Shown one piece after another: positions 19,401 to 30,905 of a DNA stretch of 64,000 bases. The notes under the pieces were generated by a model. It had not been told where the DNA came from, did no database searches, and saw nothing but the letters and a program-made list of their open reading frames with translations. The stretch is from Nonomuraea antri (GTDB lineage: Bacteria > Actinomycetota > Actinomycetes > Streptosporangiales > Streptosporangiaceae), in contig NZ_JABCPZ010000015.1 in NCBI RefSeq assembly GCF_013283785.1, positions 21,494 to 85,493 on the forward strand. The letters are read 5' to 3'. Position 1 is the first letter of the stretch, and every line of letters begins with the position of its first letter. Both the position numbers and the translations under genes were made by a program.

Positions 19401-19555
19401 GATGTGTACCATTCCCCCGCATTTCAGAATATGAGCAGGCGTCGGACAGGAGATCGGGTCTGACCGCGATGCGGCCGACACTTTTCACATCAGGGTCAAT
19501 ACGGCAGGATGAAGTCACCTGACGGGTGTTGTCCAGTGAACGGCAAGGACCGCAA

Positions 19556-20161
19556 GTGATCCGAACGTTGCTCGCTGAGGACATGAATCTGGTACGTGGC
19601 GCGATCGTGGCGTTACTGGCCTACGAGGAGGACATCGAGGTCGTCGCGGAAGTCGAACGAGGCGACCACATCCTGGCCGCCGCCACCGCCAGCCGCCCCC
19701 ACGTGGCGGTCATCGACATCTCACTGCCCGGCCAGGACGGCCTGTCCGCCGCCGCCGAACTGCACGACAAGCTGCCCGAGTGCGGCGTGCTGATCCTCAC
19801 CGGGGTCGGGACACCCGGGCTGCTCAAGCGGGCGCTGGACGTGCACGTACGCGGCTTCATGGCCAAGGACGCCCCGCCGTCGCAGCTCGCCGACGCCATC
19901 CGCAGGGTGGCCGGCGGCGAGCGCGTGATCGACTCCGAGCTGGCGATCGCCGCGATGAAGCCGACGGAGGCCCCGCTGACGCAGCGCGAGCTGGACGTCA
20001 TCGAGGCCGCCGCCGACGGCGCGTCGATCGCGGAGATCGCCGCCACGCTGTTCCTGGCCGAGGGCACGGTCCGGAACTACCTGTGCCGGACCACCGCCAA
20101 GCTGGGCGCGCGCAGCAGGATCGACGCCATCAGGATCGTGCGCGAGTCGGGCTGGATCTGA
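19556..20161 (+). CDS. NarL/LuxR-type response regulator (RamR-like position in a lanthipeptide locus)
   Basis: A 201-aa two-domain regulator. The receiver domain has the acidic pocket residue Asp9 (LLAEDMN), phospho-acceptor Asp54 (VIDISLPG), Thr82 (ILTGVG) and Lys104 (FMAKDA). The C-terminal helix-turn-helix (about 136-190, LTQRELDVIEAAADGASIAEIAATLF...GTVRNYL) is LuxR-type. The GTG at 19556 has AAGGA 6 nt upstream. It converges on the end of the lanthipeptide operon. SapB-type loci are known to contain a dedicated regulator of this class (RamR/AmfR), so this is the likely activator, perhaps paired with the histidine kinase at the other end of the cluster. Confidence 0.85.
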   Translation: MIRTLLAEDMNLVRGAIVALLAYEEDIEVVAEVERGDHILAAATASRPHVAVIDISLPGQDGLSAAAELHDKLPECGVLILTGVGTPGLLKRALDVHVRGFMAKDAPPSQLADAIRRVAGGERVIDSELAIAAMKPTEAPLTQRELDVIEAAADGASIAEIAATLFLAEGTVRNYLCRTTAKLGARSRIDAIRIVRESGWI

Positions 20162-20220: not shown

Positions 20221-22205
20221 AGGAAGGCCAGGACGTCGGCGGCCAGCCCGATCGAGCGGCTGACCGCCCGCGCGCCGTGGCCGACCCCGGTCTCGTTCCT
20301 GAGCAGGACCGGCCGGCTCCCGCCGGTCGCCCACTGCAGGGCCGCGCACATCTTGCGCGCGTGCATCGGATCCACCCGGGTGTCGGACGCCGAGCAGGTG
20401 AACAGCGTCGCCGGATAGTCCACGCCGCGGCTCACCCGGTGGTAGGGCGAGTAGGCCAGCAGCCAGCCGAGCTGCGCCGGGTCGTCGGGGTCGCCGTACT
20501 CGCCGGTCCAGGACGCGCCGAGGCCGCTGCGGTGGTAGCGGACCATGTCGAGCAGCCCGGCCGAGCACACGGCCGCCGCGAACAGGTCAGGCCGCTGGGT
20601 GATCGCCGCGCCCACGAGCAGGCCGCCGCCCGATTCGCCGCAGATGCCGAGCCGCCCGGGCGTCGTCCAGCCGTCGGCGATCAGCTTCTCGGCGGCGGCG
20701 GTGAAGTCGTCGAAGGTGTTCTGCTTGCGCTCCAGCATGCCGTCGCGGTGCCACGACTCGCCTTCCTCGCCGCCGCCGCGCAGCCCGGCGATGGCCAGCA
20801 CGCCGCCCGCCTCCACCCAGGCCAGCGAGTCGGCGGCGTAGCCGGGCGTCAGGGGGATGCCGAAGCCGCCGTAGCCGGTCAGGATGGCCGGGCGCGGCCC
20901 CTCGCGGCCCGCCAGGGCGACCACGACCATGCGGACCCGGGTGCCGTCGGCGGAGGCGTACTCGACATGGTGGCTCTCCATCGCGGGCATCGCCATGCCG
21001 GCCGGCGCCGGCGTTCCGCCCGGCCCAGGGGACCAGGGGGTGGTGTCGCCGGTCTCGGCGTCGTAGCGCCACACCCGGCCGGGGGTGACGGCGTCGGTGT
21101 AGACGAACCACGCCTCCAGGCCGCCCTCGGGACGGCAGGTGAGCGAGGCGATCGAGCCGCTGCCCGGCAATGGCACCTCCCCCGTCCGCCGGCCGGAACC
21201 GTCGTAGCGGACGATCTCGCCGACCGCGTGCCTGGTCCTGGACACCAGCAGGGTGCCGTCCTGGAGCACGGTGAACGCGCCCAGCACGGCCTCCGGGTCC
21301 TCCGGGACGAGGTCCCGCCAGCGCGCGGGCTCGGCGGGATCGGCGACGCAGAGCCGGCGGCGCGGCGCGTCCCTGTCGGTGAGCAGGTAGAGCCGGCCGT
21401 CGCAGGCGACGCCGCCCGCCGTCCTGGCCGCCACCCCCACCTGCGCCGGGCGCGGGCCGAGCTTGTCCGGCGGCCCGGCCGACAGGTCGGCGAGCCACAG
21501 GTCGTTGCCCGTCGGGGTGGCCGCGGAGATCGCCAGCCAGCGGCCGTCCGGGCTGATCTGCACGCCGTACGAGACCGGGCCCCTGGTGAAGACCGGCACG
21601 TCGGCGCCGCCGAGCGTGCGCAGCCGAACGCCCTCGCGGAAGCGCACGTAGTAGAACGCCTGCCCGCCGGGCAGCCAGGCGACCGGCGAGTACCGGCAGC
21701 CGCCGACGGGGCCGTCCACCGGCTCGCCCGAGTCGACGTCGATGACGTGCAGGTCGGCCCGCTCGTCGCCGCTGCGCGAGATCTGGTAGGCCAGGCGGCG
21801 TCCTTCCAGGTCGGGCTGCCAGTCGTCGAGCGTGGTGAGCCCGGACGGGTCCAGCGCCATCGGGTCGAGCACCGGCCGGTCGTCGCAGTACAGCACCGGG
21901 TGCTCCTGGCAGGCCGTCTGGCTCTGGTGGAAGCGCCGGCCGCCGCGCCAGACCGGCGGGCTCACCATGCCGGTGACGCTCAGCTCGGTCAGCCGGGCGG
22001 CGAACCGCTCGCGCCCGGGCAGCCGGGCCGCGCCCTCGCGCCACAGCTCCTCCTGCTCCACGAGCCAGGCGGCGGTCCTGGGGTCGTGCGGGTCCTCCAG
22101 CCATCGGTACGGGTCGGCGATCCGATGGCCGTGACGGTCGTCGACGACGTCGTGCCGCTCGGCGGCCGGGTGGGTGGCGGGCCGGGCTTCATCGGGCAAG
22201 GTCAT
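20193..22205 (-). CDS. Prolyl oligopeptidase (S9A), probable lanthipeptide leader peptidase (FlaP-like)
   Basis: A 670-aa serine peptidase with the S9A layout: N-terminal RIADPYRWLEDPHDPRTAAW, a beta-propeller (about 80-410) that screens substrates by size, and a C-terminal alpha/beta hydrolase domain. The catalytic triad is visible as Ser525 (GESGGG), Asp608 (SDTRVDP) and His643 (GVGHGA). There is no signal peptide, so it acts in the cytoplasm. It overlaps the upstream ABC gene by 4 bp (ATGA) and is the last gene of the lanthipeptide operon. In the flavipeptin system a prolyl oligopeptidase removes part of the class III leader by cutting after proline; Pro12 of the precursor here would be the matching site. 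Confidence 0.9.
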   Translation of the reverse strand: MTLPDEARPATHPAAERHDVVDDRHGHRIADPYRWLEDPHDPRTAAWLVEQEELWREGAARLPGRERFAARLTELSVTGMVSPPVWRGGRRFHQSQTACQEHPVLYCDDRPVLDPMALDPSGLTTLDDWQPDLEGRRLAYQISRSGDERADLHVIDVDSGEPVDGPVGGCRYSPVAWLPGGQAFYYVRFREGVRLRTLGGADVPVFTRGPVSYGVQISPDGRWLAISAATPTGNDLWLADLSAGPPDKLGPRPAQVGVAARTAGGVACDGRLYLLTDRDAPRRRLCVADPAEPARWRDLVPEDPEAVLGAFTVLQDGTLLVSRTRHAVGEIVRYDGSGRRTGEVPLPGSGSIASLTCRPEGGLEAWFVYTDAVTPGRVWRYDAETGDTTPWSPGPGGTPAPAGMAMPAMESHHVEYASADGTRVRMVVVALAGREGPRPAILTGYGGFGIPLTPGYAADSLAWVEAGGVLAIAGLRGGGEEGESWHRDGMLERKQNTFDDFTAAAEKLIADGWTTPGRLGICGESGGGLLVGAAITQRPDLFAAAVCSAGLLDMVRYHRSGLGASWTGEYGDPDDPAQLGWLLAYSPYHRVSRGVDYPATLFTCSASDTRVDPMHARKMCAALQWATGGSRPVLLRNETGVGHGARAVSRSIGLAADVLAFLAAHTGLDA

Positions 22206-23977
22206 GAGACGGGCTCCGGGTTCCAGTGGCCGGTGAGGTCGGCGTACAGCGGGGAGACGGGCACCAGTTCGTCGTGGGTGCCGAGCAGGGCCCGCTCGCC
22301 GTCCATGAGCAGGATGCGGTGCGCGCGGCGGGCCGAGGTGAGCCGGTGCGCGATCACGACGAGCGTGCCGCCGCGGCGCGCGAACGCGGTCTCGACGCGG
22401 GCCTCGGCCGCGTGGTCCAGATGGCAGGTCGCCTCGTCCAGGATGACCAGCGGCGCGTCGGCGAGGTAGGCGCGCACCAGGGCGACGAGCTGGCGGCGGC
22501 CCGGCGACAGCGCGGCCGGGTCGAGCACCGCGTCGTGGCCGCCCGCGCGGTCCGCCAGGTCGGCGGCGCCGAGCGCGGCGAGCGCGGCGGCCAGCCGCTC
22601 GTCGGGCACGTCGGCGGCGCACAGGTAGGTGAGGTTCTCGCGGAGCGTGCCGCGGAACACGTACGCCTCCTGCGGGATCAGCACCCGCGAGGCGGGGCCG
22701 ACCTCGGGCGCGGGGACGCCGCCGATCAGGATCTCGCCCCGGTCGGGGCGCAGCAGGCCGGTGATCAGGCTCGCCAGCGTGGACTTGCCCGCGCCGCTCG
22801 GCCCGACGACGGCCAGGTGCTCGCCCGGTTCGAGGGTGAGGTCGAGGCCGTCGACGACCGGGGCGGCGTGCGGACCGTAGGAGAAGGTGACGCCGCGCAA
22901 CCGCACGACGGCGTCCGGCCTCGAAGGCGCGGGTGCAGGCGCGGGTGCAGGTGCGGGCCCGGCGGCGGGCACGGCGGCCTCCGCGGGTGGCGGGGTTTCT
23001 CCCGTGATGCGGTTCAGCGCCGCGAACAGCCGGATCGCGCTCACCCCGAGCCCCTGGACCAGGCCGTTCAGCGCGGGCGCGAGCGACTGGGTGACGTAGG
23101 CGAGCGCGCCCACCACGACGCCCGGCCCCGCGCCGCCGTCCAGCAGCCACGGGGTGCCGGCGAGCACGAGGAGCACGGGCAGCCAGCCGCCGACCGCGAG
23201 CGCCGCGGTGCGCGCGGCCGTCACAGCGGCCAGGGAGCGGGCCGCCGCCGCCTGGCACTCCACCCGGCCGCGCAGCCGGTCGCTCACGCCGTCCTCCAGC
23301 CCGCAGGCCTCGATGTCGCGCAGCGCGCCGGCGGCGGCGGTCATGCTCTCGTTCAGTTCCTCGTCGGCCAGCAGGAACGCGCGCTGGCTGCGGGCCAGGC
23401 GCGGCAGCGACGCCAGGAACAGGCCGAGCCCGGCGGCGAACGGCGGCAGCACCAGCACGAGCGCCTGCGGAGCCAGCGTCAGCAGCCCCAGCACCACGCT
23501 GACCAGCGTGAACGCGAACCCGCGCACGGTGGTGACGACGGCCGCGAAGGCGTCTCTGGCCAGCTCCACCTGCAGCCCGGCCCGGGCCACGGCCGAGCTG
23601 TCCCCCCTGGCCGCGCCTGAGCCGCCGGGCCGCGCCGCCTCGCCCAGCGTCCGGTGTACGACGTGGGTCAGCAGGTCGTCGCGGAACGGCTCGGCCATCG
23701 CGGCCACCGCCAGCACCACCTGGCGGGCCGCCACGGCGGCCAGCAGCCACACGCCGCCGAGCGCCGCCAGCCAGGCCACGCCGGTCAGCGGGCGGGCGGC
23801 GGCGAAGCCGTCCTCGATGGCGCGGGCGACGGCGTGCCCGATCAGGAACGCGGGCCCGGCCTCGACCAGCGACCACAGCCCCAGCCTGAGCAGCAGGGAC
23901 GGCTCCCGGCGCAGCGCCGCCCACACCATCGCCCGCCCGGCACGGCTGCCGGACGGCGGTCGCTCCCGCCGGTTCAC
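22202..23977 (-). CDS. ABC exporter half-transporter, second subunit (lanthipeptide export)
   Basis: About 591 aa: a six-helix transmembrane domain (residues ~20-320), an Ala/Pro linker (about 328-350) and an ATPase domain. Walker A is GPSGAGKST, Walker B is LVILDEATCHLD with the catalytic glutamate, and the H-loop is IAHRLT. The signature motif is degenerate (LSPGRRQ instead of LSGGQ). The GTG start at 23977 overlaps the stop of the first ABC gene (GTGA), and its own stop overlaps the peptidase start (ATGA). It resembles RamB/AmfA-type exporters of SapB-like loci and most likely works as a heterodimer with the preceding subunit. Confidence 0.85.
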   Translation of the reverse strand: MNRRERPPSGSRAGRAMVWAALRREPSLLLRLGLWSLVEAGPAFLIGHAVARAIEDGFAAARPLTGVAWLAALGGVWLLAAVAARQVVLAVAAMAEPFRDDLLTHVVHRTLGEAARPGGSGAARGDSSAVARAGLQVELARDAFAAVVTTVRGFAFTLVSVVLGLLTLAPQALVLVLPPFAAGLGLFLASLPRLARSQRAFLLADEELNESMTAAAGALRDIEACGLEDGVSDRLRGRVECQAAAARSLAAVTAARTAALAVGGWLPVLLVLAGTPWLLDGGAGPGVVVGALAYVTQSLAPALNGLVQGLGVSAIRLFAALNRITGETPPPAEAAVPAAGPAPAPAPAPAPSRPDAVVRLRGVTFSYGPHAAPVVDGLDLTLEPGEHLAVVGPSGAGKSTLASLITGLLRPDRGEILIGGVPAPEVGPASRVLIPQEAYVFRGTLRENLTYLCAADVPDERLAAALAALGAADLADRAGGHDAVLDPAALSPGRRQLVALVRAYLADAPLVILDEATCHLDHAAEARVETAFARRGGTLVVIAHRLTSARRAHRILLMDGERALLGTHDELVPVSPLYADLTGHWNPEPVS

Positions 23978-25671
23978 GACGGGTCTCCGTCGGCGGCCGG
24001 CTGGAAGACGGCGCGGTAGTCCGGGTCGTGCCAGAGCAGGTCGTGCGGGCCGCAGGCGCGTACCTCGCCGCGCTCCAGCCAGACGATCCGGTCGGCGCGG
24101 GCGGCGGTGGCCAGGCGGTGCGCGACGATGAGGCTGGTCCTGCCGTGGGCGGTGAGCGCCCGGGTGACCTGGCGTTCGGTCACCGTGTCGAGGCTGGAGG
24201 TGGCGTCGTCGAGCACCAGCAGGCGCGGCGTGCGGGCCAGGGCCCTGGCCAGGCCGAGCCGCTGGCGTTCGCCGCCCGACATGGGGGCCGCCGACAGCCG
24301 GGTGGCGTAGCCGTCGGGGAGCTGCCGGACGAAGGCGTCCGCGCAGGCGGTCCGCGCCGCCTCGACCACCCGCTGGTCCGGCACGCCGGCCGCGCGCCGC
24401 CCGGAGTGCGCCGGGTGGCCGTCGATGGCGGCCGCGATCGTCTCGCCGATCAGCGCCGGACGTTCGAAGGCGCAGCCCACCGCCTGACGCAGCGCCGGGC
24501 GGGCCAGCTCGCGCAGCGGGACGCCGTCCAGCAGGACCGCGCCCTCGGCCGGGTCGGACAGGCGGGCGGCCAGCGCCGCCAGCAGCGACTTGCCCGAGCC
24601 GGAGAGACCGACCACGGCCGTCACCGAGCCGCCGGGCAGCACCAGGTCGCCGACGCGCAGCCCGTCGGCACGCACGCCGCGGAACTCCAGCCGCCCCGGG
24701 CCGCAGGGCAGCGACCGGGTTCCGTAGGGCGTGGCGGGCACGTCGAGCACCTGGGTGACGCGTTCGGCCGCGGCCCGCGCCCTGGCCAGGCCGCCGAGGT
24801 AGCCGAGCGAGGTGCTCAGCGCCGCGCCCAGCACGGCGTAGCGGGCGGCGGCGTACAGCTCGCCCACGCTGAGCTCGCCCGCGGCCAGCCGGAGCCCGCC
24901 GACGGCCAGGACGGCCACCTCGACCAGCGGCACGACCAGCCCGGCCTGGACCCCCGCCGAGGCGTTGGCCCGCCACAGCCGCAGGCCGTGCTCGCGCAGG
25001 CGCGGCAGCGGCGTCAGCACCCGGCGCGCCTCGCGCCCGGCGGCGCCGGCTGCGGCGATGGTCCTGGCCCCGGTCAGCGCGTCGACCAGGCGGGACGCGA
25101 TCTCCCCCTGGACCTCCTGGTAGCCGCCCGCGATCGTGGTCGTGGTGCGCAGGAAGGCGCGCAGCACGTACAGGATGAGGACGATGCCGGCCGCGAGCGT
25201 GAGCGTCAGCAGCGGGTCGATGAGGGTGAGCGCGACCAGCGCGCCGACGGTGGGCACCAGCGTGCCGAGCGCGCTGGTGACGGTGTCGGGGGCGCGGCCC
25301 ACCTCCTCGGCGTTCAGCCCGGCCCTGGTGACCAGCTCGCCTTCGGGGAAGCGGCGGGTCATGGCGTGACCGGCGCCGAGCACGTGGCGCAGCACGCCGA
25401 GCCTGAGCCTGGCCGCCGCGTACGCGCCGCTCGCGCCCCGGGCCCAGACGCCCAGCGCCTCGCAGACCATGACGAGCGCGACCACCGACGCGCACAGCGC
25501 CAGCCAGGACAGCGCGGGCCGGCCCGCGACGAGGAGGTCCACGGTGCGGCCGACCAGGTAGGGGACGGCCAGTTCCGCGGCGGCGCCCAGGACGGCGGTG
25601 GCGGCCAGCACGGCCGGCCACGGTCCGCCGCGCCGCACCGTGCGCATGACCAGCCGGTCGGCTGCTCGCAC
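23974..25671 (-). CDS. ABC exporter half-transporter, first subunit (lanthipeptide export)
   Basis: About 565 aa with an N-terminal transmembrane domain (six helices within residues ~15-290) fused to an ATPase domain. Walker A is GLSGSGKS, the signature MSGGERQRLGLARAL is canonical, and the H-loop is VAHRL. Walker B reads LLVLDDATSSLD, with Asp in place of the catalytic Glu. The GTG at 25671 is chosen because GGGAGG lies 6 nt upstream; longer in-frame starts lack a ribosome-binding site and would overlap a hairpin. It follows the precursor gene after a 109-bp gap. Together with the next gene it would export the modified peptide. Confidence 0.85.
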   Translation of the reverse strand: MRAADRLVMRTVRRGGPWPAVLAATAVLGAAAELAVPYLVGRTVDLLVAGRPALSWLALCASVVALVMVCEALGVWARGASGAYAAARLRLGVLRHVLGAGHAMTRRFPEGELVTRAGLNAEEVGRAPDTVTSALGTLVPTVGALVALTLIDPLLTLTLAAGIVLILYVLRAFLRTTTTIAGGYQEVQGEIASRLVDALTGARTIAAAGAAGREARRVLTPLPRLREHGLRLWRANASAGVQAGLVVPLVEVAVLAVGGLRLAAGELSVGELYAAARYAVLGAALSTSLGYLGGLARARAAAERVTQVLDVPATPYGTRSLPCGPGRLEFRGVRADGLRVGDLVLPGGSVTAVVGLSGSGKSLLAALAARLSDPAEGAVLLDGVPLRELARPALRQAVGCAFERPALIGETIAAAIDGHPAHSGRRAAGVPDQRVVEAARTACADAFVRQLPDGYATRLSAAPMSGGERQRLGLARALARTPRLLVLDDATSSLDTVTERQVTRALTAHGRTSLIVAHRLATAARADRIVWLERGEVRACGPHDLLWHDPDYRAVFQPAADGDPS

Positions 25672-25737
25672 CCCTCGCCTCCCTTGCGGTGGCCGGCTCA
25701 CGCCTTTACGAAGTATGTCTGTTTTATCCGGGGGAGC

Positions 25738-25764
25738 CCCCGCGCCGTCGGTGACGGCGCGGGG
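25738..25764 (-). terminator. Hairpin attenuator between the precursor gene and the transporter genes
   Basis: CCCCGCGCCGTC (25738-25749) pairs perfectly with GACGGCGCGGGG (25753-25764) around a 3-nt loop, giving a 12-bp GC-rich stem. It starts 16 nt beyond the precursor stop codon. Partial terminators in this position are common in lanthipeptide operons, where they let precursor message exceed transporter message and protect its 3' end. Confidence 0.7.
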
Positions 25765-25780
25765 ACCCGGCACCACGTGA

Positions 25781-25912
25781 TCAGTGGCACAGAGCGACAC
25801 TCAGGTTGCTCGGCTTGCCGGAGTGACACGTGAGAGCAGTCAGCGTGCTGCCGCCGCTGGCCACGTCGCTGGCCGCGGGAGCCTCCAGACCCTGCAGGTC
25901 GAGAAGAACCAT
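25781..25912 (-). CDS. lanA: SapB-like class III lanthipeptide precursor peptide (43 aa)
   Basis: The ATG at 25912 starts 5 nt after the synthetase stop and uses the AAGGAGGTG inside the end of that gene. The 43-residue peptide begins MVLLDLQGLEAP, an amphipathic leader with the DLQ-x-LE signature of class III precursors that binds the LanKC enzyme. The core holds two copies of the ring motif S-x2-(S/T)-x3-C: Ser22/Thr25/Cys29 (STLTALTC) and Ser35/Ser38/Cys42 (SNLSVALC), joined by HSGKP. SapB (RamS) has the same two-ring plan. Dehydration at the Ser/Thr residues and cyclisation to Cys would give two lanthionine or labionin rings, probably a surface-active aerial-growth peptide. Confidence 0.93.
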   Translation of the reverse strand: MVLLDLQGLEAPAASDVASGGSTLTALTCHSGKPSNLSVALCH

Positions 25913-25917
25913 TTTCG

Positions 25918-28476
25918 TTACACCTCCTTCCGGGGGGCTCCGAGGTCAGGCCGCTCGGGTGCGGCCTGGAGGAACGGCAGGTGGCCCGGTCGGCCGCCCA
26001 GGGCGGTGCCGAGGGCGAACAGGACACCCGCCGTGCCGGTCGCGAAATCCATGGACAGGCGCAGCAGTTGGTCGCCGGGGAACGCCAGCCCGCCGCCGTA
26101 CGGCAGCGCGTGCCAGCGCAGTCCCGCGATCTGCGCCTCGAGGTGCGGGTCGAGCCGGTCCGGTGCGAGCGGGTCGCGGGCGAAGGCGGCGATGATGCCG
26201 GCCCGCCCGGTGAACAGCCCGGACTGGACGAAGAAGCCGGAGCGGGCGACCAGTCTGAGGTCGCCGAGCGCGCGGCGGAAAGTCTCGTCGTCGCGGTGCA
26301 CCAGGTAGCGCTGGAGCACCAGGGCGATGCCGGCCGAGCCCTCGTCGAGGTACGGCAGCAGCCGCCAGCCCTGGTTGACCTGGAGTGATCCGTCGTCGGC
26401 TGCCCGGCAGCGCCTCAGGTCCTGGCGGAGCGCGGTGGCGGCCAGGTCGAGCAGCGCCGGGTCGCCGGTGTGCTCGTAGGCGTGCAGGAACAGCAGGGCG
26501 GGGCCGCACGAGCCGTGCAGGAGCCCGGCCCTGGGGTTCGTGCCGCCGCTGGTCTCCGGGACGTCGTCGGCGCCGCCCAGCCGCTCGGCGCAGATGTCGG
26601 CCGCGCGCAGGGCCAGGTCGCGTTCGCCGAAGTGGAGCAGGTTCAGCCCGATGCCGGACAGCCCGGACGACAGCGCCGACTCCAGCTTGTCCCACTTCTC
26701 GCGCAGGCAGACGGTGAGCAGGTCGCGCGCGTCCTGGTGGTGTCCGAGCAGGTCCAGCACGTACGCGATGCCGTGCAGCCCGTCGTACAGGCCGAGTCCC
26801 GAGCCCTGGACCGGGCGGCGGGCGCGATCGCGCAGCCACTTCTCGTGGTCGGGGAACGGGCCGAGCCCGGCGTGGTGGAGCGCGTAGAGCACGCCGGCCG
26901 CGCCGTGCGCGAGGTTGAGCCCGCCGCCGGGCTGGAACTGGGCGATGTCGCCGGGGAAGAGCCGGTCGTCGCGGTCCGGGGTGGCCGCCGCGGTGATCGC
27001 GCGGCCCATCGCGTCGCGTAACTCGGGCCAGGCGCCGGGCAGGTCTCGGGCCGGTGGCTCGCCGTCGTCCGTCCCGCGGATGAGGTGGACGGCGGGTGCG
27101 AGGTCGGCGTCGGCGAGGGGGAACGTGTCGGCGACGATCTCGCCGAGCTGGACGACCTTCGCCCGGTGCAGCGGCAGCATGATGGTGCACTGCGGGGCGA
27201 ACAGGCCCAGGCGCAGGCAGGCCATCGCGTACTTGTCGGCGTCCACGCCGAGCCGGTCGGCCGGGGCGGCGAAGGCCGGGTGCGCGAGCGCGGCACGGGC
27301 CCGGTCGGCGGCCAGGGTGGCGACCTCGTAGTCGATCAGCACCACCCGGCCGCTCTCGGTGAGCAGGATGTTGTCCGGGTGCAGGTCGCCGAAGACCACC
27401 CCGCGCTCGTGCAGCGACTCGACGGCGTCCGCCACCTGCCGCAGCGTGTCGAGCGCCCAGGTGGTGTACTCGGCCAGGTCGTCGGGGGTGCAGGTGGCGC
27501 TGGTGAGCGGGTAGCGGCGGACGAGCCTGCGTTGCAGCGGCGTGCCGTCCACGAACTCCTGCACCAGGAAATGGTGCTCGCCGAGGGTGAAGTAGTCGCG
27601 GAAGGCGGGCGCGGCGGGCAGGCCGCTCAGGCGCTGGAGTATGTCGCGCTCGTGCTCCAGCCTGGCGACCGCGTCGCGGCCGGCCGCGTCGAGCCCGGCG
27701 TGCGGCCTGGCCTCCTTCAGCACCAGCCGCTCCCCCGTGCGGGTGTCGGTGGCGAGGTAGACGCCGCCGCCGTTGGAGAAGTGCAGCACGCTCTCGATCC
27801 GGTACGGCAGCTCGCCGGTGGTCACCGCGTTGCGCGCGGCCAGGTGGGATTCGAGGAAGGCCGGCAGGGTCGTCCACGGCGGGACGGAGAAGGTCGAGCC
27901 GCGCACGTCGGGCACCAGCGTGCCGTCGCCGTCGGCCACGGCCAGGACGCGTTCGCCCGCCCCTGACAGGCAGTGCCGCTCGGCGAATCCGCCGTAACGG
28001 ACGAACAGCGGGCCCTGGCCGTAGCGCAGGTCACTGAGGATGTACGGGCCCTGGACGCCGCGCAGGAGCTCGTCGAGTTCCTTGAGCACGAGTTCGAGCT
28101 GGACCTCGTCCCTGGGGTAGATCGTGATCAGCTTGCCGCTGGAGGCCCGGGAGGCGGCCTTGGAATTGACCATGATGAGCACCGGGGCGCCGCGCAGGAA
28201 TTTGAACGCGATCGCGTGGGATACGCAGTAATCCCAGACGGTCTCGATGGCCTTCTCGGCGTCGTCCAGCCGGGCGGACACGTGGATCTTCCAGCCCTGG
28301 GCGGGCAGCGGCGCCTCGCCCAGCGGGGCGTAGTAGCACCAGGTGTCCGTGGCCTGGTGTGCCCATCCTTCGGGGAGGGGTCTGCGCAGAATGGGGAAAT
28401 CAGCCTCTGCCGCGCTGTGATCGAAGGTGTCGTAGAAATTGGGATCTGCGAGGCAGTACAGCTCGTACTGCTCCAT
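25918..28476 (-). CDS. lanKC: Class III lanthipeptide synthetase LanKC (RamC-like)
   Basis: An 852-aa three-domain enzyme. Residues 1-220 form the phospho-Ser/Thr lyase domain (YCLADPNFYDTFDH start typical of RamC-like proteins). Residues ~225-480 are a Ser/Thr kinase domain with glycine loop SNGGGVYLA (234-242), Lys254, catalytic Asp364 (FGDLHPDN) and metal-binding Asp382 (IDYE). Residues ~515-850 are a LanC-like cyclase with repeated G-x-x-G helices (NLAHGAAGVLYAL, YDGLHGIAYVL, FATGTAGVLFAL); the C-H-G zinc ligand motif is absent (LFTGRAG instead), as expected for class III. It phosphorylates, eliminates and cyclises Ser/Thr and Cys of the adjacent precursor. The gene starts 87 bp after the histidine kinase stop. 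Confidence 0.93.
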   Translation of the reverse strand: MEQYELYCLADPNFYDTFDHSAAEADFPILRRPLPEGWAHQATDTWCYYAPLGEAPLPAQGWKIHVSARLDDAEKAIETVWDYCVSHAIAFKFLRGAPVLIMVNSKAASRASSGKLITIYPRDEVQLELVLKELDELLRGVQGPYILSDLRYGQGPLFVRYGGFAERHCLSGAGERVLAVADGDGTLVPDVRGSTFSVPPWTTLPAFLESHLAARNAVTTGELPYRIESVLHFSNGGGVYLATDTRTGERLVLKEARPHAGLDAAGRDAVARLEHERDILQRLSGLPAAPAFRDYFTLGEHHFLVQEFVDGTPLQRRLVRRYPLTSATCTPDDLAEYTTWALDTLRQVADAVESLHERGVVFGDLHPDNILLTESGRVVLIDYEVATLAADRARAALAHPAFAAPADRLGVDADKYAMACLRLGLFAPQCTIMLPLHRAKVVQLGEIVADTFPLADADLAPAVHLIRGTDDGEPPARDLPGAWPELRDAMGRAITAAATPDRDDRLFPGDIAQFQPGGGLNLAHGAAGVLYALHHAGLGPFPDHEKWLRDRARRPVQGSGLGLYDGLHGIAYVLDLLGHHQDARDLLTVCLREKWDKLESALSSGLSGIGLNLLHFGERDLALRAADICAERLGGADDVPETSGGTNPRAGLLHGSCGPALLFLHAYEHTGDPALLDLAATALRQDLRRCRAADDGSLQVNQGWRLLPYLDEGSAGIALVLQRYLVHRDDETFRRALGDLRLVARSGFFVQSGLFTGRAGIIAAFARDPLAPDRLDPHLEAQIAGLRWHALPYGGGLAFPGDQLLRLSMDFATGTAGVLFALGTALGGRPGHLPFLQAAPERPDLGAPRKEV

Positions 28477-28536
28477 TCCGACCTCCCGGGGTGAAGTTCC
28501 ATGGAAATCCTGCCCCGGGAGCGCGGTGGCGGGCTA

Positions 28537-28550
28537 GTAACACCCGTTAC
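28537..28550. promoter_or_regulatory. Palindrome upstream of the lanthipeptide operon (candidate regulator site)
   Basis: GTAACACCCGTTAC has 5-bp arms (GTAAC and GTTAC) around four bases and lies about 60 bp upstream of the lanKC start, in the gap after the histidine kinase gene. On the coding strand, TTGTGA and TTTAAA spaced by 17 bp lie just upstream, inside the kinase 3' end, and could be a promoter. Both are candidates only. Confidence 0.35.
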
Positions 28551-28563
28551 CATCGATATGTGG

Positions 28564-29748
28564 CTATTTAAATGGCATTTGTGTGTTTTTCACAATGGAT
28601 TGGGTGGACATTGTTTTCTTCCACGGGACGTAAACGCTGAAGGTGAATTGGCCCGTCCGCGAAGACCTGGCCTCCAGCCAGCCGCCCAGCACGGACACGC
28701 GGTGGGCGAGGTTCGGCAGCCCCAGGCCGGGGTCGCCGGGCCGGCTGCACGGGCGGACGCCGTCGTTCCTGATCGACAGGCGCACCATCTGCTCGCGCTG
28801 GAGCAGCTGGATGTAGCACTGCCGGGCGTCGGCGTGCCGCAGCACGTTGGTCACGCCTTCACGCAGGGCGTGCGTCAGCGCCTCCTCGACGTCCTCGGGC
28901 AGGTCCTGGCAGGACGCCTGGATGTAGCAGCGCACCTGCACCGACTCCAGCAGCCCACGCGCCGAGCCCAGCTCGGCCACCAGGGACGAGCCGCGCAGCC
29001 CGTGCGCCACCGCCCGGACGTCGGCCGACACGCGGCGCAGCAGTTTCAGGGTCTCCTCCACCTCGTCCATGGCCTTGGCGTCCTTGGCCTTCATCAGGCG
29101 TTCGATGAGCTGGACCTTCAGCACCAGCGCGGTGAGCCGGTGCCCGACCAGGTCGTGCAGGTCGCGGGTGAAGCGGCGGCGCTCGCGGCGCACGGCCTCG
29201 TGCAGGTCGTCCGCGCGGGCCTCGCCCAGGGCGTGCGCGCGCGTCGCCAGCGACACCAGCGCGTACTCGGTCAGGCCGATCAGCGGGACCAGGAACGCCC
29301 AGAGCACGTCGGCGTCGGTGCGCCCGGAGTCGGCGAGCCCGACGAATCCGCTCGACAGCGCCGCCACCGCCGCCGCCAGCCCCGCCACCAGCGACCGGCT
29401 CTGCGTCGCGGCCAGCAGCAGCGCGCCCGCCAGCAGCCCGCACACCGGCATCCAGCCCGCGCCAACGAACGGCAGCGGCGGATACGTCACGGCCGCGAGC
29501 ACGGCCACGATCCACCACTCGACGTCGTGCCCGAGCAGCGCGTTGACCACGAACTTGGCGTGCAGGACGAGCACCACGATCAGCAGCGCCGCCCCCTGCA
29601 GCGCGAAGCCGGCCTCGGCCAGGCGCAGCTGGACCGGCGCGGCCAGCGCGGTCGCGCCGGCCAGCAGCCCGAGTCCGCCGAGCCACAGCGGAGACGACGA
29701 TGTGATGACCCGTAATCTGCGAAGGAGTAGGCGCTGCGTGCTTTCCAC
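28564..29748 (-). CDS. Two-component sensor histidine kinase (HisKA_3 type)
   Basis: About 394 aa: an N-terminal membrane part with roughly six to seven hydrophobic segments (residues ~20-165) and no large extracytoplasmic domain, then a HisKA_3 dimerisation domain with the phospho-acceptor His198 in RRFTRDLHDLVGHRLT. A HATPase domain follows (EGVTNVLRHADARQC, NDGV, GLGLPNLAHRVSVLGG). HisKA_3 kinases pair with NarL-type regulators, and the only such response regulator in the window is at the opposite end of the lanthipeptide cluster. The GTG at 29748 is preferred because GGGGG precedes it; an in-frame GTG at 29814 would add 22 residues. Confidence 0.85.
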   Translation of the reverse strand: MESTQRLLLRRLRVITSSSPLWLGGLGLLAGATALAAPVQLRLAEAGFALQGAALLIVVLVLHAKFVVNALLGHDVEWWIVAVLAAVTYPPLPFVGAGWMPVCGLLAGALLLAATQSRSLVAGLAAAVAALSSGFVGLADSGRTDADVLWAFLVPLIGLTEYALVSLATRAHALGEARADDLHEAVRRERRRFTRDLHDLVGHRLTALVLKVQLIERLMKAKDAKAMDEVEETLKLLRRVSADVRAVAHGLRGSSLVAELGSARGLLESVQVRCYIQASCQDLPEDVEEALTHALREGVTNVLRHADARQCYIQLLQREQMVRLSIRNDGVRPCSRPGDPGLGLPNLAHRVSVLGGWLEARSSRTGQFTFSVYVPWKKTMSTQSIVKNTQMPFK

Positions 29749-29933
29749 CTCACCCCCTGTACATGTTTGGTCAGAATGAATACGGAGTGTGGCGAGAACA
29801 CTCACCCGTGTCACGTCCCTCTAATCGACCCTGATGCGGGCCATTGTGTAAAGGCCCTATGTCCTGCGTGAACACGCTGGCCTTCCCTGACACGGACGAC
29901 TTAGGCAGACCATCGGGTCATAAGCTGGGCGCT

Positions 29934-30905
<972 letters not shown>

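Follow-up and report, generated by a model that had tools for sequence, protein, structure and literature searches.

The DNA analyzed, called the window here, is a stretch of 64,000 nt from a contig of Nonomuraea antri (NZ_JABCPZ010000015.1). On its minus strand, the genes for a histidine kinase, a lanthionine synthetase (LanKC), a small precursor peptide (LanA), two ABC transporter subunits (ABC 1 and ABC 2) and a prolyl oligopeptidase follow one another in that order (Table 1). An earlier note on this DNA had correctly placed the precursor frame between the synthetase stop codon and the ABC genes but left its strand unstated, and while it named the synthetase and ABC genes as neighbors it overlooked the prolyl oligopeptidase.

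Table 1. Genes and signals of the lanthipeptide locus, with positions in the window.
Feature	Position	Strand	Matches and remarks
LuxR-type response regulator	19526..20161	plus	PF00072, 63.9 bits; PF00196, 52.1 bits; convergent with the operon
Prolyl oligopeptidase (FlaP-like), 670 aa	20193..22205	minus	PF02897, 188.8 bits; PF00326, 162.7 bits
ABC transporter subunit 2 (ABC 2)	22202..23977	minus	ATPase domain PF00005, 86.5 bits
ABC transporter subunit 1 (ABC 1)	23974..25671	minus	membrane and ATPase domains; PF00664, 72.4 bits; PF00005, 76.1 bits
Hairpin between LanA and ABC 1	25738..25764	minus	perfect 12-bp stem, 3-base loop, without a U tract
LanA precursor gene	25781..25912	minus	43 codons; 43-aa peptide MVLLDLQGLEAPAASDVASGGSTLTALTCHSGKPSNLSVALCH; ring motifs S22/T25/C29 and S35/S38/C42; leader Pro12; linker Pro34
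Ribosome-binding site of LanA	25922..25929	minus	AAGGAGGT; within the final LanKC codons; from the sequence
LanKC, class III lanthionine synthetase, 852 aa	25918..28476	minus	RamC_N, kinase and LanC-like domains
Sensor histidine kinase	28564..29814	minus	HisKA_3, HATPase_c; upstream of LanKC; part searched 28564-29778

LanKC matched NF038151 at 1066.9 bits (cut-off 575) and adjoins the precursor gene, which assigns the cluster to class III. Its domain matches were PF25816, PF00069 and PF05147, and LanKC relatives in the PDB were also matched. The GTG at 25671 is the probable start codon of ABC 1, judged by eye from a GGGAGG site, and for ABC 2 no membrane domain match was listed in the Pfam profile search. 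The prolyl oligopeptidase is the last gene of the operon, and its ATG overlaps the stop codon of ABC 2 (ATGA). It aligns lengthwise with the prolyl endopeptidase 2bkl (419.7 bits), and Ser525, Asp608 and His643 occupy what we take to be the places of the catalytic triad. A second prolyl oligopeptidase gene, with a product 56-60% identical to the clustered one, is present on another contig of the same genome (C568; L214 4229-6268, minus strand); within 10 kb around it there was no match to the LanKC, ABC, kinase or regulator sequences of the window at E 1e-5. Contig C499 carries a weaker, partial match.

The ATG of the precursor gene sits five bases past the LanKC stop codon (AAG GAG GTG TAA CGAAA ATG). 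The ribosome-binding site claimed for it previously is real, ending nine bases 5' of the ATG, and a GGAGG-like site no more than 22 nt ahead of the precursor was also found at 111 of 131 related loci. Comparison with the sequence and the frame listing likewise upheld the coordinates, the length of 43 codons, the leader start MVLLDLQGLEAP and both ring motifs. LanA carries the LxLQ-type leader and the S-x2-S/T-x2-5-C ring motifs of class III precursors; Pro12 lies ten residues ahead of the first ring serine, and the spacer between leader and core reads AASDVASGG.

The hairpin that follows the precursor gene gave a z of -2.87 on thermodynamic folding (117 nt). Among 127 loci, the 90 nt 3' of the last precursor folded at z < -2 relative to shuffled sequences in 98 and fell short of this in 29, the genus set contributing 23 of its 35 loci to the former. 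Perfect stems of at least eight pairs occur 3' of LanA at 60 of the 127 loci, and the letters of the hairpin differ between genera. Scans of 25600-30000 did not list the window hairpin among consensus terminators and gave no sigma-70-like promoter, and Rfam gave no match at gathering thresholds. The hairpin is likely an attenuator or a terminator, and we read it as an attenuator.

Family membership and conservation of the precursor

LanA matched two family models over its full length: NF033212 (SapB/AmfS family lanthipeptide; 48.1 bits, cut-off 25, E 9e-13, residues 1-43) and PF19402 (RamS; 46.0 bits, cut-off 24.3, E 7.3e-12). A protein search with LanA (E up to 10) yielded 167 proteins, and all 120 of those listed carry a RamS domain in precomputed annotation. 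The best match among those listed, P0006, is 95% identical, and LanA of the window may itself be part of that entry. P0008, P0009 and P0011 are 91-93% identical to LanA, and since such relatives are already publicly named (P0008 and P0009 appear at NCBI as 'SapB/AmfS family lanthipeptide [Nonomuraea]'), this type of peptide has not gone unrecognized. With the adjacent LanKC, these matches and names bear out the proposal that the frame encodes a class III precursor of the SapB/AmfS family. The core had also been described as different from that of SapB, and it is, as is the linker; new it is not, as an identical core occurs in two further genomes of the genus (L069 and L070), and those of the database proteins P0009 and P0029 are one residue away. 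In a 2020 survey, 55% of class III precursors were without annotation (PMC7268733).

Conservation in relatives, on which the earlier note had staked its reading, was found: at E <= 0.001, a LanA match is present in 34 of the 54 genomes of the genus, N. antri counted in, and absent from 20. In the bacterial family, 158 of the 298 genomes drawn had a RamS-family match. The precursor is under purifying selection within the genus, with an uncorrected pN/pS of 0.20 (34 genus sequences, 31 distinct) that divides into 0.087 for the leader, 0.30 for the spacer and 0.225 for the core. When LanA was aligned with 42 of the 120 listed matches, S22, T25, C29 and S38 did not vary, and conservation of S35 and C42 was 90% or more. 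As the frame is short and 16 kb of this DNA hold 108 frames of at least 35 aa, one might think of a decayed or untranslated frame kept through overlap with other DNA signals. Such an explanation is barely credible, given the full-length family match and the ribosome-binding site in place; scores above the cut-offs of both models, occurrence in 34 of the 54 genomes and the low pN/pS put the frame beyond chance.

The genome of N. antri encodes a second class III synthetase, on contig C55 (L213 4959-7496, plus strand; NF038151, 947.8 bits), which is 43% identical to LanKC of the window. About 2 kb from it and on the other strand (2830, minus) is a candidate single-ring precursor, MELANILELQKLESAPEYDELPGSGASTITC, preceded by AAAAGGAGGTG. 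This candidate resembles one-ring precursors of lipolanthine type.

Core type and the clustered protease among relatives

A set of 131 loci was compared, comprising the window, 34 further places in the genus (two of them in G307), two Kribbella loci, the best 93 of the 137 matched family genomes outside the genus, and a record of Nonomuraea gerenzanensis (NZ_LT559118.1, L068) that gives the same match values as L088 of the set (genome G269 of the genus) and probably represents that genome. This 11.85-Mb record is titled 'plasmid I' and filed among plasmids, and its size suggests a chromosome. Full-flank loci, where 6.5 kb or more follows the precursor, numbered 119, and the protease was called present where tblastn exceeded 200 bits. 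It was found at all 71 full-flank loci with a PSN-type ring B core, including L136, where one of three precursors reads PSALS, and at none of the 48 with other cores. These 48 comprise 11 loci with cores of the form SLLLCGDSSLSxTTC, which we label SapB-like, 26 of a PHENSS type, four of a CDK type and seven others. The 12 short-flank loci were kept out of the count: two have the protease and a PSN-type core, five have other cores and no protease seen, and at the remaining five, with a PSN-type core and the protease unseen, the downstream flank stops at 45 to 2947 bases.

The 73 protease-bearing loci yielded 79 distinct peptides, every one with S-x2-T-x3-C followed by S-x2-S-x3-C, a proline in the leader and another directly ahead of ring B; a single peptide has an additional Cys motif by the same rule. 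The 48 protease-free loci yielded 68 distinct peptides, in none of which did this rule find a mid-ring Thr. A text pattern for the triad matched 71 of the 73 proteases, the unmatched ones being those of L154 and L157. The leader proline was tried as a marker of the clustered protease and rejected; it also occurs at 33 of the 48 protease-free full-flank loci and, for that reason, does not predict the protease on its own. It is the core type, rather than the leader proline, that tracks the clustered protease.

How often this association arose can be read from a FastTree phylogeny of LanKC, which covers 127 of the 131 loci (115 labelled; four dropped for a short or broken match) and shows long branches in places, along with a warning that L113 and L158 meet. 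The protease label amounts to one change on this tree. Repeated independent gains of the protease are therefore rejected as support for a functional link, and the association counts as one event inherited by many, not as repeated evidence. The 11 loci with SapB-like cores fall on the opposite side of one branch from the protease-bearing loci. The protease gene is the immediate downstream neighbor of the precursor at the two Kribbella loci and follows ABC 2 at the other 71, and its retention although the position differs lends modest extra support to the link.

Two other arrangements were seen among the relatives. PHENSS-type loci (e.g., L155, L159 and L163) have the core SNLSLLxCTPHENSSLSxxCG, with ring B as S-x2-S-x2-C; a leader proline was present in those looked at, and there is no clustered prolyl oligopeptidase. 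In loci of genus g5 (e.g., L114 6001-6674, L112 and L120), a cluster can hold as many as four precursor genes in tandem, with identical or nearly identical cores and Gly/His-rich spacers between leader and core.

These comparisons bear on whether the locus encodes a strict SapB/AmfS-type morphogen, with the same rings, unlinked proteases and RamR-type control, next to which the prolyl oligopeptidase is a chance neighbor. LanA does belong to the same NCBIfam and Pfam family, and the gene set resembles that of ramCSAB-ramR in having a synthetase, a precursor, two ABC genes and a response regulator (PMC13380574; PMC4255298). Such leaders can also be processed by M1 proteases: AplP/AlpP, which is unrelated to the prolyl oligopeptidase, reportedly cleaves the SapB and flavipeptin leaders (PMC12328550), and the genome of N. 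antri has six PF01433 (Peptidase_M1) matches. A chance neighbor would, however, hardly concur with core type at 119 of 119 full-flank loci or be kept by two Kribbella loci with a different gene order, and neither the mid-ring A Thr of LanA, foreign to the protease-free loci, nor the histidine kinase encoded upstream suits this explanation, which we consider quite improbable.

Proposed maturation and role

We favor, at a probability of roughly 85%, the reading of LanA as a FlaA-type precursor of the SapB/AmfS family that would be dehydrated and ringed by LanKC, exported by the ABC transporter and cut after Pro12 by the prolyl oligopeptidase of its own operon. Weighing against this reading are the leader prolines of protease-free loci, the single origin of the association, the five short-flank loci with a PSN-type core and no protease seen, the second prolyl oligopeptidase gene, the M1 proteases and the Brevibacterium clusters with weak flaP homologues (PMC5719810). 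The cluster has two hallmarks of the flavipeptin type, a prolyl oligopeptidase gene and a leader proline (Pro12) upstream of the core. The LLDLQ leader would be the recognition element for LanKC, upon which S22, T25, S35 and S38 would each lose water, and two rings, either (methyl)lanthionine or (methyl)labionin, would be formed with C29 and C42; which of the two a synthetase forms is hard to foretell from the enzyme (PMC13380574). With all four waters lost (-72.04 Da), the computed monoisotopic mass is 2882.380 Da for residues 13-43 ([M+2H]2+ 1442.197) and 2167.067 Da for residues 22-43 ([M+2H]2+ 1084.541). The two predicted ABC proteins would export the ringed peptide, and the prolyl oligopeptidase would cut the modified peptide after Pro12, as reported for FlaP, which cleaves FlaA efficiently after Pro(-12) only when the macrocycles are installed (PMC10885120). 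An aminopeptidase may then trim the remainder of the leader. The hairpin downstream of the precursor gene could hold the level of precursor mRNA above that of the transporter and protease mRNA, and the flanking histidine kinase and response regulator may switch the operon on.

By analogy with SapB, AmfS and durhapeptin, for which roles in aerial growth are described (PMC13380574; PMC4255298), the LanA product may act at the colony surface during aerial growth. We leave this at near even odds. Alternatively, a class III peptide built in the same way could have antibiotic or other activity and no developmental role. Antiallodynic and antiviral class III peptides have been reported (PMC12328550; NAI-112), and the patchy distribution, with a match missing from 20 of the 54 genomes of the genus, would agree with this. 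Against it, the strong conservation of the core across genera would be more in keeping with a peptide of structural or self-directed function than with an antibiotic in an arms race, and the antimicrobial activity of actinobacterial class III peptides is said to be limited (PMC12328550); on balance, a non-developmental product seems rather unlikely.

The flavipeptin-type reading can be extended, tentatively and with the odds leaning against it, to one clade made up of Streptosporangiaceae and Kribbella, in which the ringed core licenses removal of the leader. The core signature (a mid-ring A Thr and a Pro immediately ahead of ring B) would have been co-inherited with the clustered post-proline protease, which would free the peptide only once it is finished. 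Control of the operon would lie with the flanking kinase and regulator. Such a clade would possess a self-contained, quality-checked module for a surface peptide, distinct from SapB.

Should the surface role be true, lanthipeptide-assisted development, mostly studied in Streptomyces, would reach Nonomuraea and its relatives. The core-plus-protease signature can be used for sorting further clusters.

Comparison with characterized lanthipeptides

SapB (RamS) and AmfS likewise belong to the NF033212 and PF19402 families, with an LLDLQ leader, two rings, a synthetase gene adjoining the precursor gene, two ABC genes and a response regulator; ramR itself was found solely in streptomycetes by a 2013 survey (PMC4255298). 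The LanA cluster differs from theirs in the core and linker, the Thr in ring A, the Pro before ring B, the prolyl oligopeptidase in the operon and the histidine kinase upstream. The SapB plan assigned by the earlier note therefore stands as to family and gives way as to type, where flavipeptin (FlaA/FlaP) is the better fit for the core, for the leader proline and for a prolyl oligopeptidase gene that closes the operon. Durhapeptin, from Streptomyces durhamensis, also has an L-L-D-L-Q leader and a response regulator by its cluster, and its two S-x2-S-x3-C motifs follow the same ring plan as LanA. Unlike LanA, it has a different and very hydrophobic core, for which MS supports two labionins, and its five-gene cluster is described without a prolyl oligopeptidase (PMC13380574).

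The flavipeptin strain, Kribbella flavida DSM 17836 (PMC5719810), encodes a RamS-family protein, P0175 (Kfla_2467), that is 66% identical to LanA and, from the identity of the strain, is probably FlaA. P0175 and LanA have in common the LLDLQGLEAP leader, the ring spacing, a ring A Thr and a ring B with PSNLS, whereas the AASDVASGG spacer of LanA is replaced by a Gly run in P0175. LanKC relatives in K. antiqua and K. pittospori are 63% and 62% identical to that of the window, and in both species a closely similar precursor and a prolyl oligopeptidase are encoded after LanKC; the K. antiqua protease is 61% identical to the clustered enzyme of N. antri. Whereas the prolyl oligopeptidase gene stands at the operon end in the window, both Kribbella loci have it directly behind the precursor.

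FlaA and SapB have been assigned to a single type III subfamily (PMC11251773), and in Brevibacterium weak flaP homologues are described for six clusters, with a leader proline in only one of the six precursors (PMC5719810). Among the genera for which a 2022 protease survey lists FlaP-type clusters are Kribbella, Streptomyces, Amycolatopsis and Jiangella; neither Nonomuraea nor Streptosporang- occurs in its main text. A search of the openly available literature found no paper joining Nonomuraea, lanthipeptide and prolyl oligopeptidase. Of the characterized relatives, the flavipeptin precursor, not SapB, is likely the closest to LanA. Within the SapB/AmfS family, the cluster is best assigned to the flavipeptin type, a shift from SapB-like to flavipeptin-like that adds a likely maturation protease.
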